Origin: Butyricicoccus faecihominis
GTDB taxonomy: Bacteria; Bacillota; Clostridia; Oscillospirales; Butyricicoccaceae
Assembly (NCBI RefSeq): GCF_024462775.1
Contig: NZ_JANGCE010000014.1
Coordinates: forward strand, 1-64,000
Direction of reading: 5' to 3'
DNA length: 64,000 nucleotides
The notes under the pieces: model-generated
Told to the model about the DNA's origin: nothing
Seen by the model: only the letters and a program-made list of their open reading frames with translations
The model's database searches: none
Position numbers and translations under genes: made by a program
Shown here: in pieces, positions 20,185 through 29,249 of the stretch
How positions within the stretch are numbered: position 1 is the stretch's first letter
Layout of the letters: each line of letters opens with the position of its first letter

Positions 20185-21297
20185 TTATATCAATTCCATG
20201 ATATTGCTGCACGTCAGGCCGAACGCTTCGGCGGCGCCGGGGCAGGTGCAGCGGCCCTTAAAACAGTTAACGCCGTTTGCAAGCCCGGCGTCGTCGCGGA
20301 CCGCCTGCGCAAAGCCCTTGGTGGCGAGCGCCAGACCGTGTCCGAGCGTGGTGTTCGTCAGCGCGATGGTCGAGGTGCGGCTTACCGCGCCCGGCATATT
20401 GGCCACGCAGTAATGCACCACGCCGTCCACCGTGAACACGGGGTCCTGATGGGTGGTGGGGTGCGTGGTCTCGATACAGCCGCCCTGATCGACCGCAACA
20501 TCGACGATGACCGCGCCCGGCTTCATGCGCTTTAGATCCTCGCGCAGCACCAGCTTGGGCGTGCGGCGGCCCGGCAGCAGCACCGCGCCGATCACCAGAT
20601 CGGCCTTCTCGATTGAAGCGAGGATATTGGCGCGGCTGCTGTACAGCGTCTGCACGCGGCCGCTGAACTGATCGTCCAGCTCGGCCAGACGCGCCGCGCT
20701 GACGTCCAGAATGGTGACGTTCGCGCCCATGCCGGTGGCGATCTTGCAGGCGTTGGTGCCAACGCCGCCGCCGCCGATGATGACGACCTCCGCCTTTTGC
20801 ACGCCCGGCACGCCGGAAAGCAGGATGCCCCGCCCGCCGAACGGCGTTTCCAGATACTTCGCGCCTTCCTGCACCGCCATGCGGCCCGCGATCTCGCTCA
20901 TCGGAATCAGGCACGGCAGGCCGCCGCGCGCATCCGTGATGGTCTCGTAGGCGACCGCCGTTGTGCCCGCCTTCAGCAGCGCGTCGGTCAGCGGCCGGTC
21001 AGCCGCCAGATGCAGATATGTATAAAGAAGCTGCCCTTCCCTTAAATACCGGTATTCGCTTTCGATCGGCTCCTTGACCTTAACGATCATGCCGGCTTCG
21101 TGCCAAACGGCGGCGGCGTCCGCGCGGAACGAAGCGCCCGCCCGCTCATATTCCTCATCCGTATAGCCCGAGCCAAGGCCCGCGCCGCGCTCCGCCACCA
21201 CCGAGTGGCCGGCCTCCACATAGGCCCTGACGCAGTCCGGCGTCATGCCCACGCGAAATTCGTTGTTCTTGATTTCTTTGACCAATCCAATAATCAT
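20185..21297 (-). CDS. ald: Alanine dehydrogenase
   Basis: A 370-residue cytoplasmic NAD-dependent enzyme that interconverts L-alanine with pyruvate and ammonia. The N-terminal part has the substrate site ([14 protein letters not shown], Lys in MIVKVKEP, and LYTYLHLA with the catalytic His). The Rossmann domain has the glycine motif [21 protein letters not shown]. Length fits the family. The start at 21297 lies after GGATGGGAAC. It is monocistronic. Confidence 0.93.
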
Positions 21298-21384
21298 TGT
21301 GTTCCCATCCTTTCCAGTCTTCTCATGCCGGGAAAGTTCCCTACCCTTATATCCTCCGCGCATACGGCCCTCTTGTCAAGCTTT

Positions 21385-21430
21385 TTTGTAAAAAAAGCGG
21401 CGGGCGGACCAATTCGGCCCACCCGTCGGT
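21385..21430 (-). terminator. Terminator of the PTS operon
   Basis: On the minus strand a GC-rich hairpin with two G-U pairs (CGGGTGGG with TCCGCCCG) is followed by seven T. It lies just after the HPr-like gene. Confidence 0.65.
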
Positions 21431-21441
21431 GTATGCATGAA

Positions 21442-21699
21442 TTATAGGTTTTCCTTCAAAAACGCTTCCAGCGTTTGCGCGGCCTCTGCTTCGTTATCGC
21501 CCTCCAGCGTAAAGACGATCTCGTCGCCGCCCTTGACGGACAGCCCCATAACGGCGAACATTTTAGCCGCGTCCGCTGTTTTTTCACCCTTGGCAAGCAT
21601 CACCTTGCAACCAAACTCCTTGGCCTTTTTGACCAGCATGCCCGCCGGGCGCGCGTGCAGCCCCAGCGGATCGGTCACGGTATAGCGTAGTGTTGTCAT
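21442..21699 (-). CDS. HPr-family phosphocarrier lacking the Ser46 site
   Basis: An 85-residue PTS phosphocarrier. The active-site motif GLHARPAG is intact with His15 in register. An ungapped comparison with B. subtilis HPr puts Lys at position 46, where HPr kinase normally phosphorylates Ser; there is no Ser next to it. So it should carry phosphate from Enzyme I but not serve in Ser-P catabolite repression. The ATG at 21699 is placed 7 bases after GGAGG and 2 bases after the HAD-cupin stop. It is probably dedicated to the adjacent glucitol-type PTS. Confidence 0.88.
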   Translation of the reverse strand: MTTLRYTVTDPLGLHARPAGMLVKKAKEFGCKVMLAKGEKTADAAKMFAVMGLSVKGGDEIVFTLEGDNEAEAAQTLEAFLKENL

Positions 21700-21701
21700 A
21701 T

Positions 21702-23030
21702 TCATTCCTCCTGTTGTAATGCGTCCTGCTGCGCCTGCTGTTCGGGCGACCACGCGGCCTCCCAGTCCGCGCACCACTGCTGGAGCGGCTCCGCCATGCG
21801 GATGGTCACCTTGTCGTTCAGACCGGGCACCTTGGCAAAAAGCAGCCGGCAGCCTTCCCGGCACTTTTGCACATATGGCGTATCCTGCCGGAGGATGTAA
21901 AAATCCCCGGCGGAGAAATGGTACTCGGTTCCGTCCGACAGATCGATATACTTGGTTTCGCCGGACAGCAGGTAGCAGTATTCACTTGTGATCGTGTGGT
22001 AATGCGCTTGTTCCCAGTGGTAATGGTCGTAATCGCTGATGCCGATCTCCACGTTTTTATCGAGTAGGAAATTCAGGTGCTGGGGCAGCCGCAGATCACC
22101 CGCCAGATACTGTCTGGTGCTGAATTCGAGCGAAGCCTCGATCTCCTCCGCGCGCAAAATCTCGATACGGCCGGAGAACCGGCTGGGCTGCTCGCCGAGC
22201 AGCAGGGTTTCCAGCGCCCACGCCACGCCGTCTTTTTGGTTGCTGGGCGCGATATAGTTCGCCTTGGCCTTAAGCGCGTCGCAGGCGTTTCCCATCGCCA
22301 CGCGGGTGACCGCTTCATCGAACATGCCAAGGTCGTTTTCGCTGTCGCCGATGACCATGATCTCTTCCGGGGCAAGGCCCATGGCTTCGCGCACGGCGCG
22401 CACCGCGCGGCGCTTGTCCGCCCCTTCCGGGATGACCTCGATATAGTGCTCGCCCGAGGACAGCGTGACCACGCCTTCGATCGCGTTCAGGGCGACGCGC
22501 AGAAACGGGATCTGCGACACATCCCCCACGCTGACGAAAAACTTGTTCACCTTCAGCCGGTGCGCGGAGAGATAGGCGCGCAGATCGGCAACGGTCTTTT
22601 GCGTGCCGGAAAAGAAACGGACATGCTCTTCATCCATCCCGCAGGAGCATATCAGCCCCGCGCGGTCCTCCTGACAGTAGGCGCGGTTGCCCGCGTACGC
22701 CTGAAAGAATACCTTTTCGCGCATAAGACGCTCTAAGATGAACGAGACCGCCTTGTCGCTCATATACGCCTCGTACAGCAAGTGGCCGGTGCGGTAATCA
22801 TCATATACCGCGAGGCCGTTCATGGCGATCATATAGCCGTCCGCCTCGATGGCGCGCATGGCGAAATCCGCCTCATAGGCCAGCCGTCCGGTCGCGACGA
22901 CCGGGGTAACGCCCGACGCGCGCAGCTTATCGAACGCCGCCACCGTGCGGGGCGTTACCGTATCGACGCCCTGCAACAGCGTGCCGTCCAGATCGACGAA
23001 CACCGCCCGGATCGCCTGCTTTTCGTTCAT
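21702..23030 (-). CDS. HAD-family (Cof-type) phosphatase fused to a cupin-like domain
   Basis: A 442-residue two-domain protein. Residues 1 to about 280 form a Cof-type HAD hydrolase with motif I VFVDLDGTLL, motif II VVATGR and motif IV IGDSENDLGMF. From about 300 a cupin-like domain follows (HWEQAHYHTITSEYCYLLSG, metal-ligand pattern HxH...E, then FSAGDFYIL). A sugar-phosphate phosphatase with a sugar-binding or isomerising cupin is plausible. The start at 23030 was chosen for the HAD motif position. It sits between the SAF oxidoreductase and HPr genes. Confidence 0.8.
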   Translation of the reverse strand: MNEKQAIRAVFVDLDGTLLQGVDTVTPRTVAAFDKLRASGVTPVVATGRLAYEADFAMRAIEADGYMIAMNGLAVYDDYRTGHLLYEAYMSDKAVSFILERLMREKVFFQAYAGNRAYCQEDRAGLICSCGMDEEHVRFFSGTQKTVADLRAYLSAHRLKVNKFFVSVGDVSQIPFLRVALNAIEGVVTLSSGEHYIEVIPEGADKRRAVRAVREAMGLAPEEIMVIGDSENDLGMFDEAVTRVAMGNACDALKAKANYIAPSNQKDGVAWALETLLLGEQPSRFSGRIEILRAEEIEASLEFSTRQYLAGDLRLPQHLNFLLDKNVEIGISDYDHYHWEQAHYHTITSEYCYLLSGETKYIDLSDGTEYHFSAGDFYILRQDTPYVQKCREGCRLLFAKVPGLNDKVTIRMAEPLQQWCADWEAAWSPEQQAQQDALQQEE

Positions 23031-23147
23031 GCAAAAACCGCCGCCTTTCATATCGATAGGGCGCGGGGCCGCGCCGGGCAAAGCGCACCCGGCCGCGGCC
23101 CCGCAGAGAGAGTGGAAATTGATGTGTGGGCAAAACTAGAAAGGGAT

Positions 23148-24440
23148 TTAGAATGTCATGGCATCCTGTTCCTTGCGGAGCTTATAGATGAGGGTGGAGG
23201 TGTCCAGCTCGAGCATATCGAGCGTGAGCAGCTGGCCCTTCTTGGCGTCCTTGAGCATCTTGGCGCCCTTGGTCACAAGGCCGTAAGGCACATAGCCCTT
23301 GGCGTCGGATTCTTCCTTGGTCGCGATCGAGCCATAGGTGGTGTAGCCGCCGATGCCGTCGATCGTCTGGCCCGCCTTCAGATCGGTCTTGGCGACCGTG
23401 ATGCACTCGGATACCAGACCGGCCTTGGGCACGATGGTGGTCTCGCCGTCGATCACGCACTTGGCAACGGTCAGCGGGGTCTCGAGGTTGCACAGGTGGT
23501 ACGGGCGGTACAGCGTCCACAGCGGGCCGGGGCCCATGGAGTGGTACTGCATCTGGTAAGCGATCTCTTCGTTGTCGGTGGAGATGGTGACGAACACGCC
23601 GGGGGCGATACCGTTGACAAACTCAACGACGCCGTGCTTGTTCAGGATGCCGCCGTCTTCCTTGAGGCGGTACATATCGTTCAGGCCCTTCACGTCGCAC
23701 GCAATGCCGTGGCCGCCGATCACATCGGGTACCAGACCGGTCGCGTTGGACATGGCGGTCATTTCCACCATGGTCTTGGTGCCGTCCTTGAACGCGCAGA
23801 GCATCTTGGGGCTCATCTTGCGGCGGGTGGCCTCTTCCAGCACGGTATCCGGGTTGCAGTCGCGGGCCAGACGGTTGTTCTTGCCCTTGCCCATGACCTT
23901 AACGTCCATACCCATGGCCTTGGCGAAGCAGTACAGCTCCATAACGGCGCCCGGCTCGTCGCCGGCGGAACCGGTATACAGCACGCCGTTGTCCTCGGCC
24001 AGTTTTTTCAGGTAAGGCCCAATGACAACGTCGGTCTCAACGTTGAGCATGACCACGTGCTTGCCGTTCTTGATCGACTCGGTCGCCACGCGGGCGCCGA
24101 CGTCGGGCACGCCGGTCGCGTCGATCGCGCACTCGACCAGATTGGCCTGCGAAATGAAGTTTGCGTCCTCACAGGCAATATACTTGCCGGCTTCCATATA
24201 GCGGTTGGCCTCTTCGATGGTCTTGGCTACCACGATGTCGCTGTCGTCCACGCCGGCATACTTGAACGCGTTTACCGCGTTCTGTACCTGAATATCGGAT
24301 ACGATCGCCGGGGTGATACCGTGCATCAGCACCATCTGGGTGACCATGCCGCGGCCCATCTGGCCTGCGCCGACAATACCGGTGCGGATCGTTTTGCCTT
24401 CCTGCTCACGCTTGATGAGTTTGTTGTTCATGTTAAGCAT
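23148..24440 (-). CDS. NAD(P)-dependent oxidoreductase with SAF domain (COG4091 type)
   Basis: A 430-residue protein often labelled homoserine dehydrogenase-like. A Rossmann domain (TGIVGAGQMGRGM, about 19-31) leads a dehydrogenase fold with a conserved middle (GSAGDEPGAVMEL), and a C-terminal SAF domain lies at about 340-420. The start follows GGAGG by 8 bases. Linkage to a glucitol-type PTS and absence of the usual sorbitol-6-phosphate dehydrogenase suggest it oxidises the phosphorylated polyol or a derivative. The true substrate is unknown to me, and a threonine-pathway role is not supported by the neighbours. Confidence 0.8.
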   Translation of the reverse strand: MLNMNNKLIKREQEGKTIRTGIVGAGQMGRGMVTQMVLMHGITPAIVSDIQVQNAVNAFKYAGVDDSDIVVAKTIEEANRYMEAGKYIACEDANFISQANLVECAIDATGVPDVGARVATESIKNGKHVVMLNVETDVVIGPYLKKLAEDNGVLYTGSAGDEPGAVMELYCFAKAMGMDVKVMGKGKNNRLARDCNPDTVLEEATRRKMSPKMLCAFKDGTKTMVEMTAMSNATGLVPDVIGGHGIACDVKGLNDMYRLKEDGGILNKHGVVEFVNGIAPGVFVTISTDNEEIAYQMQYHSMGPGPLWTLYRPYHLCNLETPLTVAKCVIDGETTIVPKAGLVSECITVAKTDLKAGQTIDGIGGYTTYGSIATKEESDAKGYVPYGLVTKGAKMLKDAKKGQLLTLDMLELDTSTLIYKLRKEQDAMTF

Positions 24441-24591
24441 AGTTATTTCCTCCATTTATGTAATTAAATAGCTTTCGTTGGTGAAAAAAGCCGTACCCCC
24501 CTACTGGCGGCGCGGCAAAACGCGCCGTCACAAGCGAATCAGGCTATTTTCTTTTTACCGGTACGTCTTTTGGAGGCGTGCCGCAGTGGGA

Positions 24592-24960
24592 TCAATAGAT
24601 CTCGATGGTACCGCCGACCGCAAGATCGGCCGCCGTGAGCTTTTCGCCCTCCAGCATGATGCAGCCGGGGCGCTCGGGCTCCGCCCCGCCCTTAAAGCTG
24701 AGCGTGCAGTGGCCCAGCGCGCGCAGGGTCTCCTTGGCTTCGTCGCCTACCGCGGTCACATCGTACACCTTGCCGCAGATCATCAGGGTATCGCCGGGCG
24801 CGGGATCGGTGTGCAATTCGGCCTCCGTATGCAGAACGGCGATCTCGGCCAGCTCCTCGGGAGCGTTTTCGTTAAAGAGAATGAGGAAGTTGCACTCTTC
24901 GTCTTCGAGAAAGCCGAGCGCGTCCGGTCCCCAACCGGTGATGGTGGAACAGTACTTCAT
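24592..24960 (-). CDS. srlB: PTS glucitol/sorbitol-type EIIA
   Basis: A 122-residue cytoplasmic phosphotransfer subunit of the Gut family, length as expected. The phospho-His is probably the one in IAVLHTEAEL. It receives phosphate from HPr and passes it to the EIIB part of SrlE. It lies 57 bp after srlE. The 150 bp between it and the oxidoreductase gene hold a small GC hairpin (24507-24526). Confidence 0.88.
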   Translation of the reverse strand: MKYCSTITGWGPDALGFLEDEECNFLILFNENAPEELAEIAVLHTEAELHTDPAPGDTLMICGKVYDVTAVGDEAKETLRALGHCTLSFKGGAEPERPGCIMLEGEKLTAADLAVGGTIEIY

Positions 24961-25017
24961 GCGGATTGCCTCCTTCGTAATGATGCGCCGCGGCGCGGCT
25001 GAATGATAAGGAAATTG

Positions 25018-26034
25018 TTATGCAGCGTACAAGCCGATGCTGAATACGAACGCGATGATAACGGACAGCGGGCCGGTGATGACGCGGGAGTACAGAACGG
25101 CGGGCACGCCGAGTTCGATGGTCTCTTCATCCGCTTCGCCGAGGGACAGGCCCACCGGTACGAAGTCGCCGCCGACCTGCGCGTTGATCGCGAACAGTGC
25201 GGGCAGGGCGAACTGCGCCGGGATATTGCCAAGGCCGATCTCCGCGCCGAGCAGCGTGCCGACGACCTGCGCGATGACCGCGCCGGGGCCAAGCACCGGG
25301 CTGAGGAAGGGCAGCGCGCAGATCAGCGAAATCACGAGCATGCCGGGCAGCGTGGAGCACAGGGGCGAAATGGTGTTGGCGATCACATCGCCCAGACCGG
25401 AGGCCTGAATGATGCCGAGCAGCATCGAGGTGAAGGCCATGAACGGCAGGATGTTGCGAATGACCATATCGATCGAATCGCGGCCCGCCTGAAACAGCTT
25501 GCCGACCACCTTGCCGACGCCGATGCCGATCCGGGTGATGATGCCGGGCTTCTTCTGCTCGCGCATCGCGGCGATCTCAGCCTTAGCCTGATCCTTGCTC
25601 TTGGGCTCGCCGGCCTTGGGCGCGGCGGGAGCGGCGGGGGCAGCCGAGGAAGCGGCCGCGACCGCGCCTTCGTCCGCGTAGCTGATGTCGGTTTCTTTTA
25701 CATCGGACACATACAGTTCCTCGGTGATAAACTTGGCCAGAGGGCCGGTCGCGCCGGAGGGCATGAGGTTGACGGTCAGGATTTTTTTCTTAGGGTAAAC
25801 GCCGCAGCGCGCGGTGCCGCCGCAGTCGATGACCGCGATCAGAACCTCGTCGTCGGGCGCGCCGCCCTTGAAGCCGTCCACAACGGTGCCGCCGGTCATT
25901 TCAGCCAGCTTGATCGCGACCGGGTGGATACCGCCGATGGTCAGGCACAGGATCTTATTTTTCTTCTCGGTGGGCACCGCCGTGATCGGGCCGCCCCAGC
26001 CGCCTTGTCCGTGACGAATCGTTACAGCTTTCAT
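25018..26034 (-). CDS. srlE: PTS glucitol/sorbitol-type EIIB with membrane domain
   Basis: A 338-residue subunit. The EIIB domain occupies about 1-140, with Cys candidates in [19 protein letters not shown] and in [10 protein letters not shown]. An Ala/Pro-rich linker (about 145-165) joins it to a C-terminal membrane domain of about four or five helices ([15 protein letters not shown] onward). Its ATG overlaps the srlA stop by one base (TAATG). Confidence 0.9.
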
Positions 26035-26567
26035 TAGTTGTCACCTCCGCGTCCGGCCTTTTTGATCATGTTCAGGTAAATCTTCTCCGTCAGGATACCG
26101 CGAATCAAAATGACGATCACGCCCACGATGAAATAGCGCACAGCCAGATCGCCCAGCGACAGGCCCAGCGTCGTGATACCGGCGGCAATGCCCATGTACA
26201 CAAACAACTCGCCCGCGTTGGCGTGCGGGAACAGGCCGGTGACCGGGTGCAGGAAGGATACGCAAGAATCGTAATAAGCGGGCTTATACTTCTGGTCGAC
26301 GAAACGGCCGAAGGTATAGCACATCGGGTTGCCGAGGAACAGTACCGCGAGGATCGGGAGCAGTGTATAGCGCAGGACCATGACGTTCGTGATCTTCTTG
26401 ACGAAGCGCTCGACGCGCTCCTCGCCGATCAGCTTAATGATAGAGTTGACAGCCGTCATCAGGCAGATGACCATCGGAATGATACCGGTGACCCATCCCA
26501 TAAACGTCTCTCCGCCGGCTTGGAACAACGACATAAAGCCGTTGGCGAGCCAAGTGATAAATTGCAT
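26034..26567 (-). CDS. srlA: PTS glucitol/sorbitol-type EIIC
   Basis: A 177-residue membrane permease subunit of the Gut PTS with the family motif [22 protein letters not shown] and [14 protein letters not shown]. The start at 26567 follows AAAGGGG. The 200 bp between it and gutM hold an inverted repeat (CCGCCGTCGG, 26705-26740) that may be an mRNA hairpin. Confidence 0.9.
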
Positions 26568-26766
26568 GTTGTTACCCCTTTCTAAAATCATCCTCTTTAT
26601 ATCTGGTATCTATGCGGGATTCTATATAGAATCGGTCCGGGCGCTTTGGCCGCGTTTTGGGGCAGCGGGAGATACCCTTTCACACGTAACCACGCGTTGT
26701 CCTGCCGCCGTCGGAGCGGGGCCCCATATCCGACGGCGGCGGGACTTAGCCCGGCCGCTTCCTATA

Positions 26767-27228
26767 TCAAACGCTGGGGGCGGGTTCCGGTTCGACCGCG
26801 CCCACAGGCTCGGTCTCGAGCAGTTCGGGCTTTTTCAGGCGCAGTTCCAGCGCTTCGATCGCTTGTATGTAGCCCTTATGGCGCTTGCGCTGTTTTTTAT
26901 CAAAGGTCTCAAACAGCGCTAAAAAGGAATCGATGCTCGCGCCCACAAAGGGATGGCCGAGAAAGTCCTTCCGGGGTTTGAAATGGGTCAGAAAGGTCAA
27001 GCCTTCCATCACTTCGACGCCGGTGATCACGCCTGCCGAATCGCAGGCGACGAGCACCAGATTGCCGGATAAAAACCGGCCCTTGGTCTGGCCGACGCCT
27101 ACGTTGCCGAGCTTGTGCATGCGCCGTATGGCTTTCTTATAATTTTGAATCTGGAACCAGCCGCCGACCGCCTGCATCACAAACAATGCGAGCGCCACCA
27201 GAAAGATCAGTTTCAGTTCATTCGACAT
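26767..27228 (-). CDS. gutM: GutM-type glucitol operon activator
   Basis: A 153-residue protein of the GutM/SrlM family with an N-terminal membrane helix (LIFLVALALFVMQAVGGWF) followed by the conserved QIQNYKKAIRRMHKLGNVGVG region. It overlaps the end of the SorC regulator gene by 11 bp. In E. coli GutM activates the glucitol operon; the membrane anchor suggests contact with the permease. Confidence 0.85.
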   Translation of the reverse strand: MSNELKLIFLVALALFVMQAVGGWFQIQNYKKAIRRMHKLGNVGVGQTKGRFLSGNLVLVACDSAGVITGVEVMEGLTFLTHFKPRKDFLGHPFVGASIDSFLALFETFDKKQRKRHKGYIQAIEALELRLKKPELLETEPVGAVEPEPAPSV

Positions 27229-28213
27229 GGTGCTTCTCCTTTCCCAATTCGACGAGGCGCTGCGCGCATTCCTCATCGGTTACCAATATATTGATATAAC
27301 CGCCTTGCAGCGCGCCGTATACGGCTTCGGCCTTGTGCAGGCCGCTGCCGATGCCGATTTTGTTTTCCACCGTGCGCAGCTGCGAAAGCGGCATGCCCGC
27401 GACGCGGTCGTTAAACGCCTGATATTGTTCCGTTTCACCGTTGCGGTCGTAGAATTGGAGCGACAGGTCGCCGACGATGCCCTCCTCGACCAGCTGGTTG
27501 ATCTGTTCGGCGGTGATATAGCCCGCCTTGATCATCGTAGAGCCCGCGCGGTTGGGGATGCCGATGCCCATGATGACCGTTTTGATCTCCTTATAATACT
27601 GGATGATGCGCTGCATCGCTTTTTCCTTCATAAAGCCCTTTAGGATCTTTTGATCGGAAAAAACCGCGGGCGCGAAAAATTCCACATATTCAGCGCCGAA
27701 CAGCTGGGCAAATTCGAGCGCGATCTGGTTGGAATGGATGTTGACCGTCGAACTGCGGCCCGAGCTGATACCGCCTAGGATCGGCACAAAGGTGCAGGCG
27801 ATGCTGTCCGCCGATTGGCGCGGGCTACAGCATACGTTGTGCAGCGTCATGCCCATGGACACGCCGACGACGTCGCCGTCGCGCAGGTAGGTTTCAAGCA
27901 GCCGGATGGTGGCGGAGCCAAGCTCCGTCATATGATCGAACCGGGTGGATAGCGGGCTGTTTTCAACGACCACGGCCTCCTTCAGGCCGTAAAGCTGTTC
28001 CAGCTCCTGTTCGAGGCGGCTGTACTCCAGGCTGTTCGGACTGAGCACCTGCACCACGACCATGCCCATTTCCCGGCCCGCCGCCAGCATCCGGGAAACC
28101 GAAACGCGGGATATCCCAAGCCGGTCGGCGATTTCCTGCTGCCCGATATGCTCCTCATAATACAGCTTGCAGCATTTGTAAATTAAACGGGGATCATCGA
28201 CTACTTTTCTCAT
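27218..28213 (-). CDS. SorC-family sugar-binding transcriptional regulator
   Basis: A 331-residue regulator with an N-terminal HTH (QQEIADRLGISRVSVSRML) and a C-terminal sugar-phosphate sensing domain (VGVSMGMTLHNV, then KTVIMGIGIPNRAGSTM and VAGMPLSQLRTVENKIGIGSG). It is first in the PTS operon and probably controls it in response to a phosphorylated polyol. The start follows GAGGGGGATACC. Confidence 0.92.
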   Translation of the reverse strand: MRKVVDDPRLIYKCCKLYYEEHIGQQEIADRLGISRVSVSRMLAAGREMGMVVVQVLSPNSLEYSRLEQELEQLYGLKEAVVVENSPLSTRFDHMTELGSATIRLLETYLRDGDVVGVSMGMTLHNVCCSPRQSADSIACTFVPILGGISSGRSSTVNIHSNQIALEFAQLFGAEYVEFFAPAVFSDQKILKGFMKEKAMQRIIQYYKEIKTVIMGIGIPNRAGSTMIKAGYITAEQINQLVEEGIVGDLSLQFYDRNGETEQYQAFNDRVAGMPLSQLRTVENKIGIGSGLHKAEAVYGALQGGYINILVTDEECAQRLVELGKEKHHVE

Positions 28214-28274: not shown

Positions 28275-28303
28275 AGTATAGTACCCATGCATCTTTTTTG
28301 CAA
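28275..28303 (-). promoter_or_regulatory. PTS operon promoter
   Basis: On the minus strand TTGCAA (28303-28298), 17-bp spacer and TATACT (28280-28275), about 60 bp before the SorC-type gene. Confidence 0.75.
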
Positions 28304-28319: not shown

Positions 28320-28520
28320 CATATGTAAAAATGCGTACAAATGGGGCCGATTTCATTATCATTTGTAAGCACTCTGTTTGAAAAACACAATTTAGGGGCC
28401 GGTTTTCTGTGCACTTTTACCCTCATCTTTTCCATGTGTTTCCATACGCTTTTGCATCTGTTCCGCGCGATGCAGGGATCGTGATGCATGATCTCGTTTG
28501 TTCTCCCTCGCCTAAGGCGC

Positions 28521-28549
28521 TTGCGCGGCGTAAACAATGGGTGTAGAAT
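28521..28549 (+). promoter_or_regulatory. Promoter of the Crp/Fnr gene
   Basis: TTGCGC, 17-bp spacer and TAGAAT end 31 bp before the ATG. Confidence 0.55.
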
Positions 28550-28580
28550 AGGAGCACTTCTGAAACCAAGGAGGGATACC

Positions 28581-29249
28581 ATGGCGCTTGATACTTATTT
28601 GCCGTTTTGGAACCGGCTTACAGAGGCGCAGCAGCGTTTGCTGCAAAACGCCGCGCGGGAGGAGCGTTACCCCGCGCGCGCGGTCCTGCACAACGGATCG
28701 GCGGACTGCATCGGCTTTCTCTTGGTAACGAGCGGACAACTGCGCGCCTACCTGCTCAGCGAGGACGGCAAGGAGCTGACGCTTTACCGCCTGTTTGAGC
28801 GGGATATATGCCTGCTTTCCGCCTCGTGTATGCTGCGCGGTATCGATTTTGACATCACGGTGGAGGCCGAGCGCGACACCGTGGTCTGGCATATCCCGCC
28901 GGAAACCTATAAGCGGCTGATGGACCAATCGCTCGCCGTAGCGGCTTACACCAACGAACTCATGGCTTCGCGCTTTTCCGATGTGATGTGGCTGATGGAT
29001 CAGGTGATGAACAAAAAACTGGATTCCCGCTTATCCGCCCTGCTGATCGAGGAGCAAGCGCTCGCCGGGAGCGACGCGCTGCACATCACCCACGAACAGC
29101 TCGCGCATCATCTCGGCAGCGCGCGCGAAGTCGTGACGCGGGTGCTGAAATACCTGCAAGGCGAAGGGCTTGTCCGGCTGACCCGGGGCACGATCGAAAT
29201 ACTCGATCGCGCGCGCCTTGCGGCGCTGGCGGCGGACAGTCTGCGCTGA
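28581..29249 (+). CDS. Crp/Fnr-family transcriptional regulator
   Basis: A 222-residue regulator with a cyclic-nucleotide-binding-like beta roll (about 15-120), a long dimer helix and a C-terminal winged HTH (HITHEQLAHHLGSAREVVTRVLKYL). There is no N-terminal Cys cluster for a 4Fe-4S centre, but Cys residues occur in DICLLSASCML, which could be redox sensitive. AAGGAGGG precedes the ATG. The thioredoxin gene follows 84 bp downstream, and a redox-stress role is inferred from it. Confidence 0.9.
   Translation: MALDTYLPFWNRLTEAQQRLLQNAAREERYPARAVLHNGSADCIGFLLVTSGQLRAYLLSEDGKELTLYRLFERDICLLSASCMLRGIDFDITVEAERDTVVWHIPPETYKRLMDQSLAVAAYTNELMASRFSDVMWLMDQVMNKKLDSRLSALLIEEQALAGSDALHITHEQLAHHLGSAREVVTRVLKYLQGEGLVRLTRGTIEILDRARLAALAADSLR

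Follow-up and report, generated by a model that had tools for sequence, protein, structure and literature searches.

Salmonella takes up 2-C-methyl-D-erythritol (ME) via the sorbitol phosphotransferase system (PTS), according to the title of a paper by Testa, Cornish and Poulter (2004). Structure 3UPY is that of Brucella DXR-II, an alternative reductoisomerase for 1-deoxy-D-xylulose 5-phosphate (DXP) (PMC3847144), and the Dxr step is classed as reversible in a review (PMC13001223). Herein, we analyzed 64,000 nucleotides of Butyricicoccus faecihominis (contig NZ_JANGCE010000014.1, positions 1 to 64,000; hereafter the window), in which the genes SorC-GutM-EIIC-EIIB-EIIA-oxidoreductase-HAD-cupin-HPr form a single minus-strand unit running from 28213 to 21442. 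This operon joins a glucitol-type PTS to an oxidoreductase of the DXR-II family (DRL), and we consider the chances about even that it imports ME and converts it to DXP. From the computed gene content, family membership, residues, co-occurrence and synteny, we infer the substrate, the direction and all reactions. The sequences suggest that an imported isoprenoid precursor may be used as food by running the DXR step backwards, which we did not find described in the literature searched.

The oxidoreductase and the occurrence of DXR-I

The sole Pfam match of the oxidoreductase was DRL_cat (8.9e-64), no NCBIfam model matched it at 0.001, and its only relatives in the PDB at 0.01 were 3UPL (1.1e-100, residues 5-433) and 3UPY (1e-100). 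By family, the protein is a DXR-II (DRL) homologue. In the Brucella enzyme, K191, K193 and T229 are substrate-binding positions, E174, F178, R320 and Y322 belong to the dimer cavity, and G121, H250 and V351 are tied to the divergence from the DLO families (PMC3847144). All of these residues were identical in the window DRL, which carries the DXR-II letters at 121, 229, 250 and 351. Over 25 sites compared with Brucella DXR-II, 23 were identical, one differed and one was unaligned. K191, K193, T229 and R320 were invariant in 71 of 71 rows with a PTS gene at the locus (the window row and sets of 21, 16 and 33 others). The DRL tree was built from proteins of 380-520 aa (or more than 330 aa when taken from tblastn) and is without named DLO sequences; in it, the window DRL grouped with Brucella DXR-II and the DRLs that stand in for DXR-I. 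The homology points to 2-C-methyl-D-erythritol 4-phosphate (MEP) and DXP, and to an isomerizing oxidation rather than a plain polyol oxidation. Two other identities found no support: homoserine dehydrogenase in the family models (DRL_cat was the sole Pfam match, with nothing in NCBIfam at 0.001), and SrlD in the family models together with the genome search.

The occurrence of DRL and DXR-I was compared in 393 genomes of the class, with presence called at E 0.001. DRL was present in 41 genomes, while 59 were without DXR-I and 33 without IspF, the latter two groups being partly named by elimination (39 and 13, respectively). DXR-I was missing from 31 of the 360 IspF-positive genomes; 30 of these are among the 41 DRL genomes, and one (G219) is among the 319 without DRL (Fisher p 1.8e-33, kinship ignored). 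The 30 DRL genomes without DXR-I belong to families f32 (18), f43 (2), f44 (4), f52 (4) and f71 (2). Both states were seen within genus g61 (G055 and G142 without DXR-I, G101 with it) and genus g82 (G079 without, G385 with). In G184 and G247 of the 41, the only DRL is a distant one, at 27-29% identity and in one case truncated at the end of a contig; both genomes have DXR-I.

A PTS-linked DRL occurred in 16 genomes of the sample, with two or three PTS genes in 15 and one, at a contig end, in G155. Eight of the 16 lacked DXR-I (G055, G079, G142, G176, G102, G226, G271 and G301), and a second DRL is present in the last four of these. Six genomes that lack DXR-I yet encode IspF and IspH have a single DRL, which is PTS-linked, namely G055, G079, G142, G176, G394 and G395. 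The last two are Selenomonas sp. F0473 and S. flueggei; their PTS genes lie less than 7 kb from DRL, and their DRLs are 75-76% identical to the window DRL and share its 29-row clade in the DRL tree. No PTS genes were found in the fetched stretch around the DRL of S. felix or G286, both with a single DRL and no DXR-I. Among 34 genomes picked for their DRL loci, mostly PTS-linked, DXR-I was present in 18, IspF in 33 and IspH in 33; Virgibacillus lacks all three. DXR-II (class E) has been noted in two Firmicutes in which neither isoprenoid pathway was found (PMC3847144). The comparison suggests that DRL replaces DXR-I in many genomes and that DXP and MEP are working substrates in the family. The window genome has DXR-I, IspF and IspH; since it keeps DXR-I, its DRL would not be needed for isoprenoid synthesis.

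At locus L033 (6787-13130), a PTS-less DRL is flanked on one side by an FAD protein resembling HI0933 and on the other by a tRNA-synthetase of class I (about 1033 aa), and gene lengths at L035, L044 and L049 are equal to those of L033 (families were scanned in L033 only). The DRL of loci of this type is perhaps a housekeeping DXR.

Organization of the operon

The products named in the original prediction were all found in place by family matches, the cupin by a weak one:

28275..28303, minus strand: promoter-like site 5' of SorC, TTGCAA-17-TATACT (consensus scan, weak)
27218..28213, minus strand: SorC/DeoR-type sugar-binding regulator (Pfam Sugar-bind, 2.7e-59)
26767..27228, minus strand: GutM (Pfam GutM, 3e-22; start at 27228 preferred, overlapping the end of SorC)
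26034..26591, minus strand: glucitol-type PTS EIIC, SrlA (Pfam EII-GUT, 5.8e-78; NCBIfam NF049923 over cut-off)
25018..26034, minus strand: glucitol-type PTS EIIB/BC, SrlE (Pfam EIIBC-GUT_N/_C; NCBIfam NF049924 over cut-off)
24592..24960, minus strand: glucitol-type PTS EIIA, SrlB (Pfam PTSIIA_gutA, 5.1e-32, over cut-off; under the NCBIfam cut-offs)
23148..24455, minus strand: DRL/DXR-II-family NAD(P) oxidoreductase (Pfam DRL_cat, PF21135, 8.9e-64; 3UPL/3UPY, 1e-100)
21702..23030, minus strand: Cof-type HAD phosphatase-cupin fusion (TIGR00099 over cut-off; cupin 1.7e-4, under cut-off)
21442..21705, minus strand: HPr-like phosphocarrier (Pfam PTS-HPr, 5.2e-25)
21401..21425, minus strand: terminator-like hairpin 3' of HPr (11-pair stem and T-run, consensus scan)

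The start of HAD-cupin is most likely the ATG at 23030 by a start-codon check, and that of HPr, preceded by a GGAGGA site, is most likely at 21705 or 21699; neither is the start of the long open reading frame. Consensus scans of the region gave 13 terminator-like sites against 8.9 expected and seven promoter-like sites against 4.0 expected. Because of the terminator-like hairpin after HPr, the alanine dehydrogenase gene (20185-21363) was dropped as an operon member and is probably a separate transcription unit. A Crp/Fnr-type regulator (28488-29249) is divergent from SorC, as it is in Listeria innocua (L178). The genome (3.69 Mb in 56 contigs, 96.9% complete) holds one glucitol EIIA and one DRL. 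As originally predicted, no SrlD lies in the operon, and all 14 matches in the genome were under the family cut-off (best 199 bits against 307).

The HAD part keeps the DLDGT and GDSEND motifs. The best fold matches of the HAD-cupin AlphaFold model (pLDDT 74.2) were HAD-IIB phosphatases, and the 50 matches listed also include phosphomannomutases. The cupin gave only weak matches in a PDB sequence search (best E 0.033), and its model alone has a mean pLDDT of 51.5. A stand-alone cupin of the Pelosinus operon is 43% identical to the HAD-cupin C-terminus. In a plasmid search, none of 309 records with HAD-cupin relatives reached 80% query coverage in one place. Our guess is that HAD-cupin serves as a phosphatase valve for surplus sugar phosphate, or as a ketol isomerase. 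HPr keeps the active-site histidine motif GLHARPA and has a residue other than serine at the regulatory serine position. It may therefore escape control by HPr kinase.

Gene sets of relatives and the proposed route

We mapped 124 DRL loci by tblastn (44 plus 80, the latter being the best 80 of 572). The sample is non-random and holds duplicate loci, such as L054/L121 and L061/L125, with some genomes entered twice. At least two glucitol PTS genes were present at 63 loci, one at seven and none at 54. At 19 of the 63 PTS loci we found E1a and E1b (with E2) resembling pyruvate dehydrogenase (PDH) or acetoin dehydrogenase, and at 15 a class II aldolase (fructose-bisphosphate aldolase, FBA) with an isomerase like triosephosphate isomerase (TIM) and YjbQ. 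The two sets never occurred together (0/63; Fisher p 0.003), and 29 loci had neither. Among loci with one PTS gene, L037 has E1 and L107 the aldolase set; the 54 PTS-less loci include two with E1 and none with TIM plus YjbQ. Each set was scattered over several separate clades of the DRL tree, in which L037, with E1, is paired with L116, which has the aldolase set; L072, another aldolase-set locus, falls within the Listeria/Ligilactobacillus clade. Clade-scattered, mutually exclusive sets are the pattern that would be expected of functional equivalents.

In the PDB, the TIM-like protein matched archaeal TIM 1hg3 (7.8e-45), the aldolase 3q94 (1.2e-51) and YjbQ 1xbf (8.7e-14). YjbQ/UPF0047 forms a fixed trio with the TIM-like isomerase and the class II aldolase at L100, L101, L102 and L111. 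A third downstream set was seen at L036, L038, L040 and L043, where glucitol PTS and DRL are accompanied by a HAD-IIA phosphatase and an enzyme like glycerol-1-phosphate dehydrogenase (families were scanned in L040 only).

Given these gene sets, we propose the following route. ME would be taken up and phosphorylated by the glucitol-type PTS under the putative control of SorC and GutM; if the window PTS acts like the sorbitol PTS of Salmonella, it would deliver MEP, with which DXR-II is naturally partnered. DRL would then oxidize and rearrange MEP to DXP, opposite to the biosynthetic direction, and cleavage of DXP would yield a C3 phosphate plus a C2 unit. The PDH/acetoin-dehydrogenase-like E1-E3 complex of many relatives could convert DXP to acetyl-CoA and glyceraldehyde 3-phosphate. 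In others, YjbQ and the TIM-like isomerase might shift the carbonyl to give 5-deoxypentulose 1-phosphate, from which the class II aldolase would produce dihydroxyacetone phosphate and acetaldehyde. In the window species, DXP might be processed by the E1-E3 complex of contig C7 or by enzymes encoded at other sites, enter the synthesis of isoprenoids, thiamine or pyridoxal, or be partly dephosphorylated by HAD-cupin. The original prediction was an oxidation followed by dephosphorylation. Its first half fits in modified form, as the oxidoreductase probably acts on the PTS product but by a DXR-II-type isomerizing reaction. Dephosphorylation is not supported as the main route; relatives often have a lyase-type set after DRL, with a Cof-type HAD scored in 6 of 124 loci and a HAD-IIA phosphatase in 4 of 124.

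The same core was seen with other transport genes. In Sinorhizobium meliloti and Agrobacterium, plasmids carry a SorC-type regulator, an ABC transporter and a kinase with DRL, E1a, E1b, E2, E3 and LipA, and the nearest row to these DRLs in the DRL tree is the characterized Brucella DXR-II (support 99). A Terrarubrum plasmid has DRL-E1-E2 divergent from GutM, EIIC, EIIB, EIIA and EI. In Priestia, a single region holds the PTS and E1-E3 genes together with DRL, an MFS transporter and an FGGY kinase, and Listeria innocua has SorC-DRL-GutM-EIIC-EIIB-EIIA. By-eye comparison placed an E1a match no more than about 200 bases from DRL at at least 25 of the 40 listed plasmid DRL places, many of them related Rhizobium records. 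The remaining 15 were checked only for Priestia, one Listeria and one Ligilactobacillus, and no E1 was found in the stretch of the latter two. Plasmid NZ_CP033217.1 of Clostridioides difficile (L180, 6968-16915) carries E1a/E1b/E2/E3 genes similar to the DRL-linked ones, along with a regulator of the SorC type.

For the E1 trees, the references were four putative acetoin dehydrogenase plasmid clusters, one PDH, one Rhodococcus row and the C7 complex of the window genome. We take three of the acetoin references to be such by the annotated name of E2, and the Enterococcus one by context. The trees excluded E1 frames no longer than 300 aa and three weak rows of 25-27% identity (L057, L102 and L111). 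The E1b tree placed the C. difficile rows together with the DRL-linked and acetoin rows, in a group that was separate from PDH, Rhodococcus and C7 (81/88), and the DRL-linked E1 is tentatively of the acetoin type. Like acetoin, DXP is a methyl ketol, the class of compound that an acetoin-like E1 would cleave; this lends modest support to DXP over fructose 6-phosphate or xylulose 5-phosphate. The window genome has one full-length E1a match, on contig C7, and it lies outside the acetoin/DRL-linked group of the E1b tree (modest support). There (G000, L085, 7882-15054), E1a-E1b-E2-E3 are followed by a short-chain dehydrogenase fusion with an extended N-terminus and by a lipoate-protein ligase.

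Alternative explanations and known systems

Several observations weigh against the import of ME and its conversion to DXP. The DXR equilibrium favors MEP, and membership of the glucitol PTS family alone leaves the substrate unfixed. No E1a/E1b/E2 was found beside DRL in the window, nor any FBA, TIM or YjbQ in its 64 kb at E 1e-4, a search limited to the window. The association with loss of DXR-I comes mostly from DRLs without a nearby PTS (22/30), and 18 of the 30 are in the single family f32. In NCBIfam, the best model for the DRL-linked E1 of relatives was PDH_E1_alph_y, under its cut-off, and the PDH E1 beta subfamily scored over its cut-off; the E1a tree did not separate PDH, acetoin and DRL-linked rows or settle the place of the C7 row. 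The C. difficile E1-E3 genes have a regulator of the sigma-54 type and PTS IIA/IIB as neighbors, and their stretch contains no DRL; no kinase or sugar ABC genes were found in the fetched stretch around DRL-E1a-E1b-E2 of an Aminobacter plasmid. The E1 trees lowered our estimate for ME import and conversion to DXP from slightly better than even to even. They also reduced that for a wider scheme, from rather doubtful to doubtful. The wider scheme is a widespread ME catabolism with uptake by PTS or by ABC transporter and kinase, a reverse DXR-II and two interchangeable cleavage sets, in which DXR-II was perhaps catabolic at its root and several times recruited to replace DXR-I.

Further points of this kind come from Pelosinus, a near relative, in which transketolase, phosphofructokinase and a cupin follow DRL, and from Ligilactobacillus, in which transketolase and an fsa gene lie near DRL. 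A pentose or hexose phosphate would therefore fit as well. These neighbors would suit a PTS that imports a hydroxymethyl-branched, apiitol-like polyol, with DRL yielding xylulose 5-phosphate for the pentose phosphate pathway. D-apionate oxidoisomerase and the erythritol/threitol pathways handle branched or short polyol acids and phosphates via oxidoisomerases and TIM-like isomerases. We regard this other branched polyol as unlikely because E1/E2 at 19 of 63 PTS loci would be better matched by a methyl ketol, provided that E1 is acetoin-like (modest support), and because DRL takes the place of DXR-I in many genomes. Import of sorbitol, with DRL replacing SrlD as a sorbitol-6-phosphate dehydrogenase that gives fructose 6-phosphate, would account for a glucitol-type PTS with GutM, and the FBA, TIM and phosphofructokinase of some relatives could be glycolytic. 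The Listeria version has been treated as a sorbitol operon (PMC11176438), but the described sorbitol operon of other Ligilactobacillus strains has SrlD (PMC4165912, PMC8065712). SrlD was over the cut-off in 2 of the 34 genomes, on contigs other than that of DRL, which means that, in those two at least, sorbitol is served by a dedicated enzyme. Together with the kept DXR-II residues and the replacement of DXR-I by DRL, this makes sorbitol distinctly unlikely as the substrate.

The absence of a cleavage set from the window operon and the presence of DXR-I, IspF and IspH in the genome agree with a salvage role, in which ME is imported as MEP only to supply the synthesis of isoprenoids, thiamine or pyridoxal and DRL connects the pools of MEP and DXP. 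However, cleavage sets stand beside DRL in relatives, and the SorC-type regulator and dedicated HPr would suggest catabolic flux; we consider salvage very unlikely. A deoxy-polyol such as rhamnitol or fucitol, oxidized by DRL as a plain dehydrogenase to a methyl ketose phosphate and cleaved by E1-E3 or the aldolase set, would likewise provide a methyl ketol for an acetoin-like E1. It leaves the kept DXR-II sites and the exchange of DXR-I for DRL unexplained, and is highly improbable.

As the original prediction held, no assigned pathway was found in the literature searched. In that search, mostly of open-access papers, we recognized none on ME catabolism or on a pathway that combines DRL with a glucitol PTS. 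The origin of DXR-II in strains that have DXR-I has been posed as a question, in a paper whose main text makes no mention of PTS or sorbitol (PMC3847144). A catabolic role, if true, would answer how DXR-II arose beside DXR-I, and it would correct the annotation of operons as 'sorbitol' and of the enzyme as 'homoserine dehydrogenase'. Plants make ME, and isoprene in air gives rise to related methyltetrols. A bacterial route for these compounds, if true, would supply a missing part of the carbon cycle.

The window operon shares its PTS family with Salmonella, where that family is proposed to make MEP from ME. The Salmonella PTS reportedly belonged to sorbitol use, ME being a laboratory supplement, and to our knowledge that system is without a DRL. 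GutM and the glucitol-family EIIC, EIIB and EIIA are common to the window operon and the srl/gut operons of enterobacteria and lactobacilli, whereas the window operon has no SrlD and has DRL, HAD-cupin and HPr in addition. SorC stands in place of the usual srl/gut regulator. The DRL-linked E1 of relatives belongs to the same superfamily as those of the acetoin and pyruvate dehydrogenase complexes, but it accompanies DRL with a PTS or with ABC transporter and kinase genes, and is missing from the window operon. Brucella abortus DXR-II (3UPL, 3UPY) resembles the window DRL in full-length homology, DRL_cat and the substrate and dimer residues; its known role is MEP biosynthesis, whereas the window DRL sits in a PTS operon of a genome that also has DXR-I.

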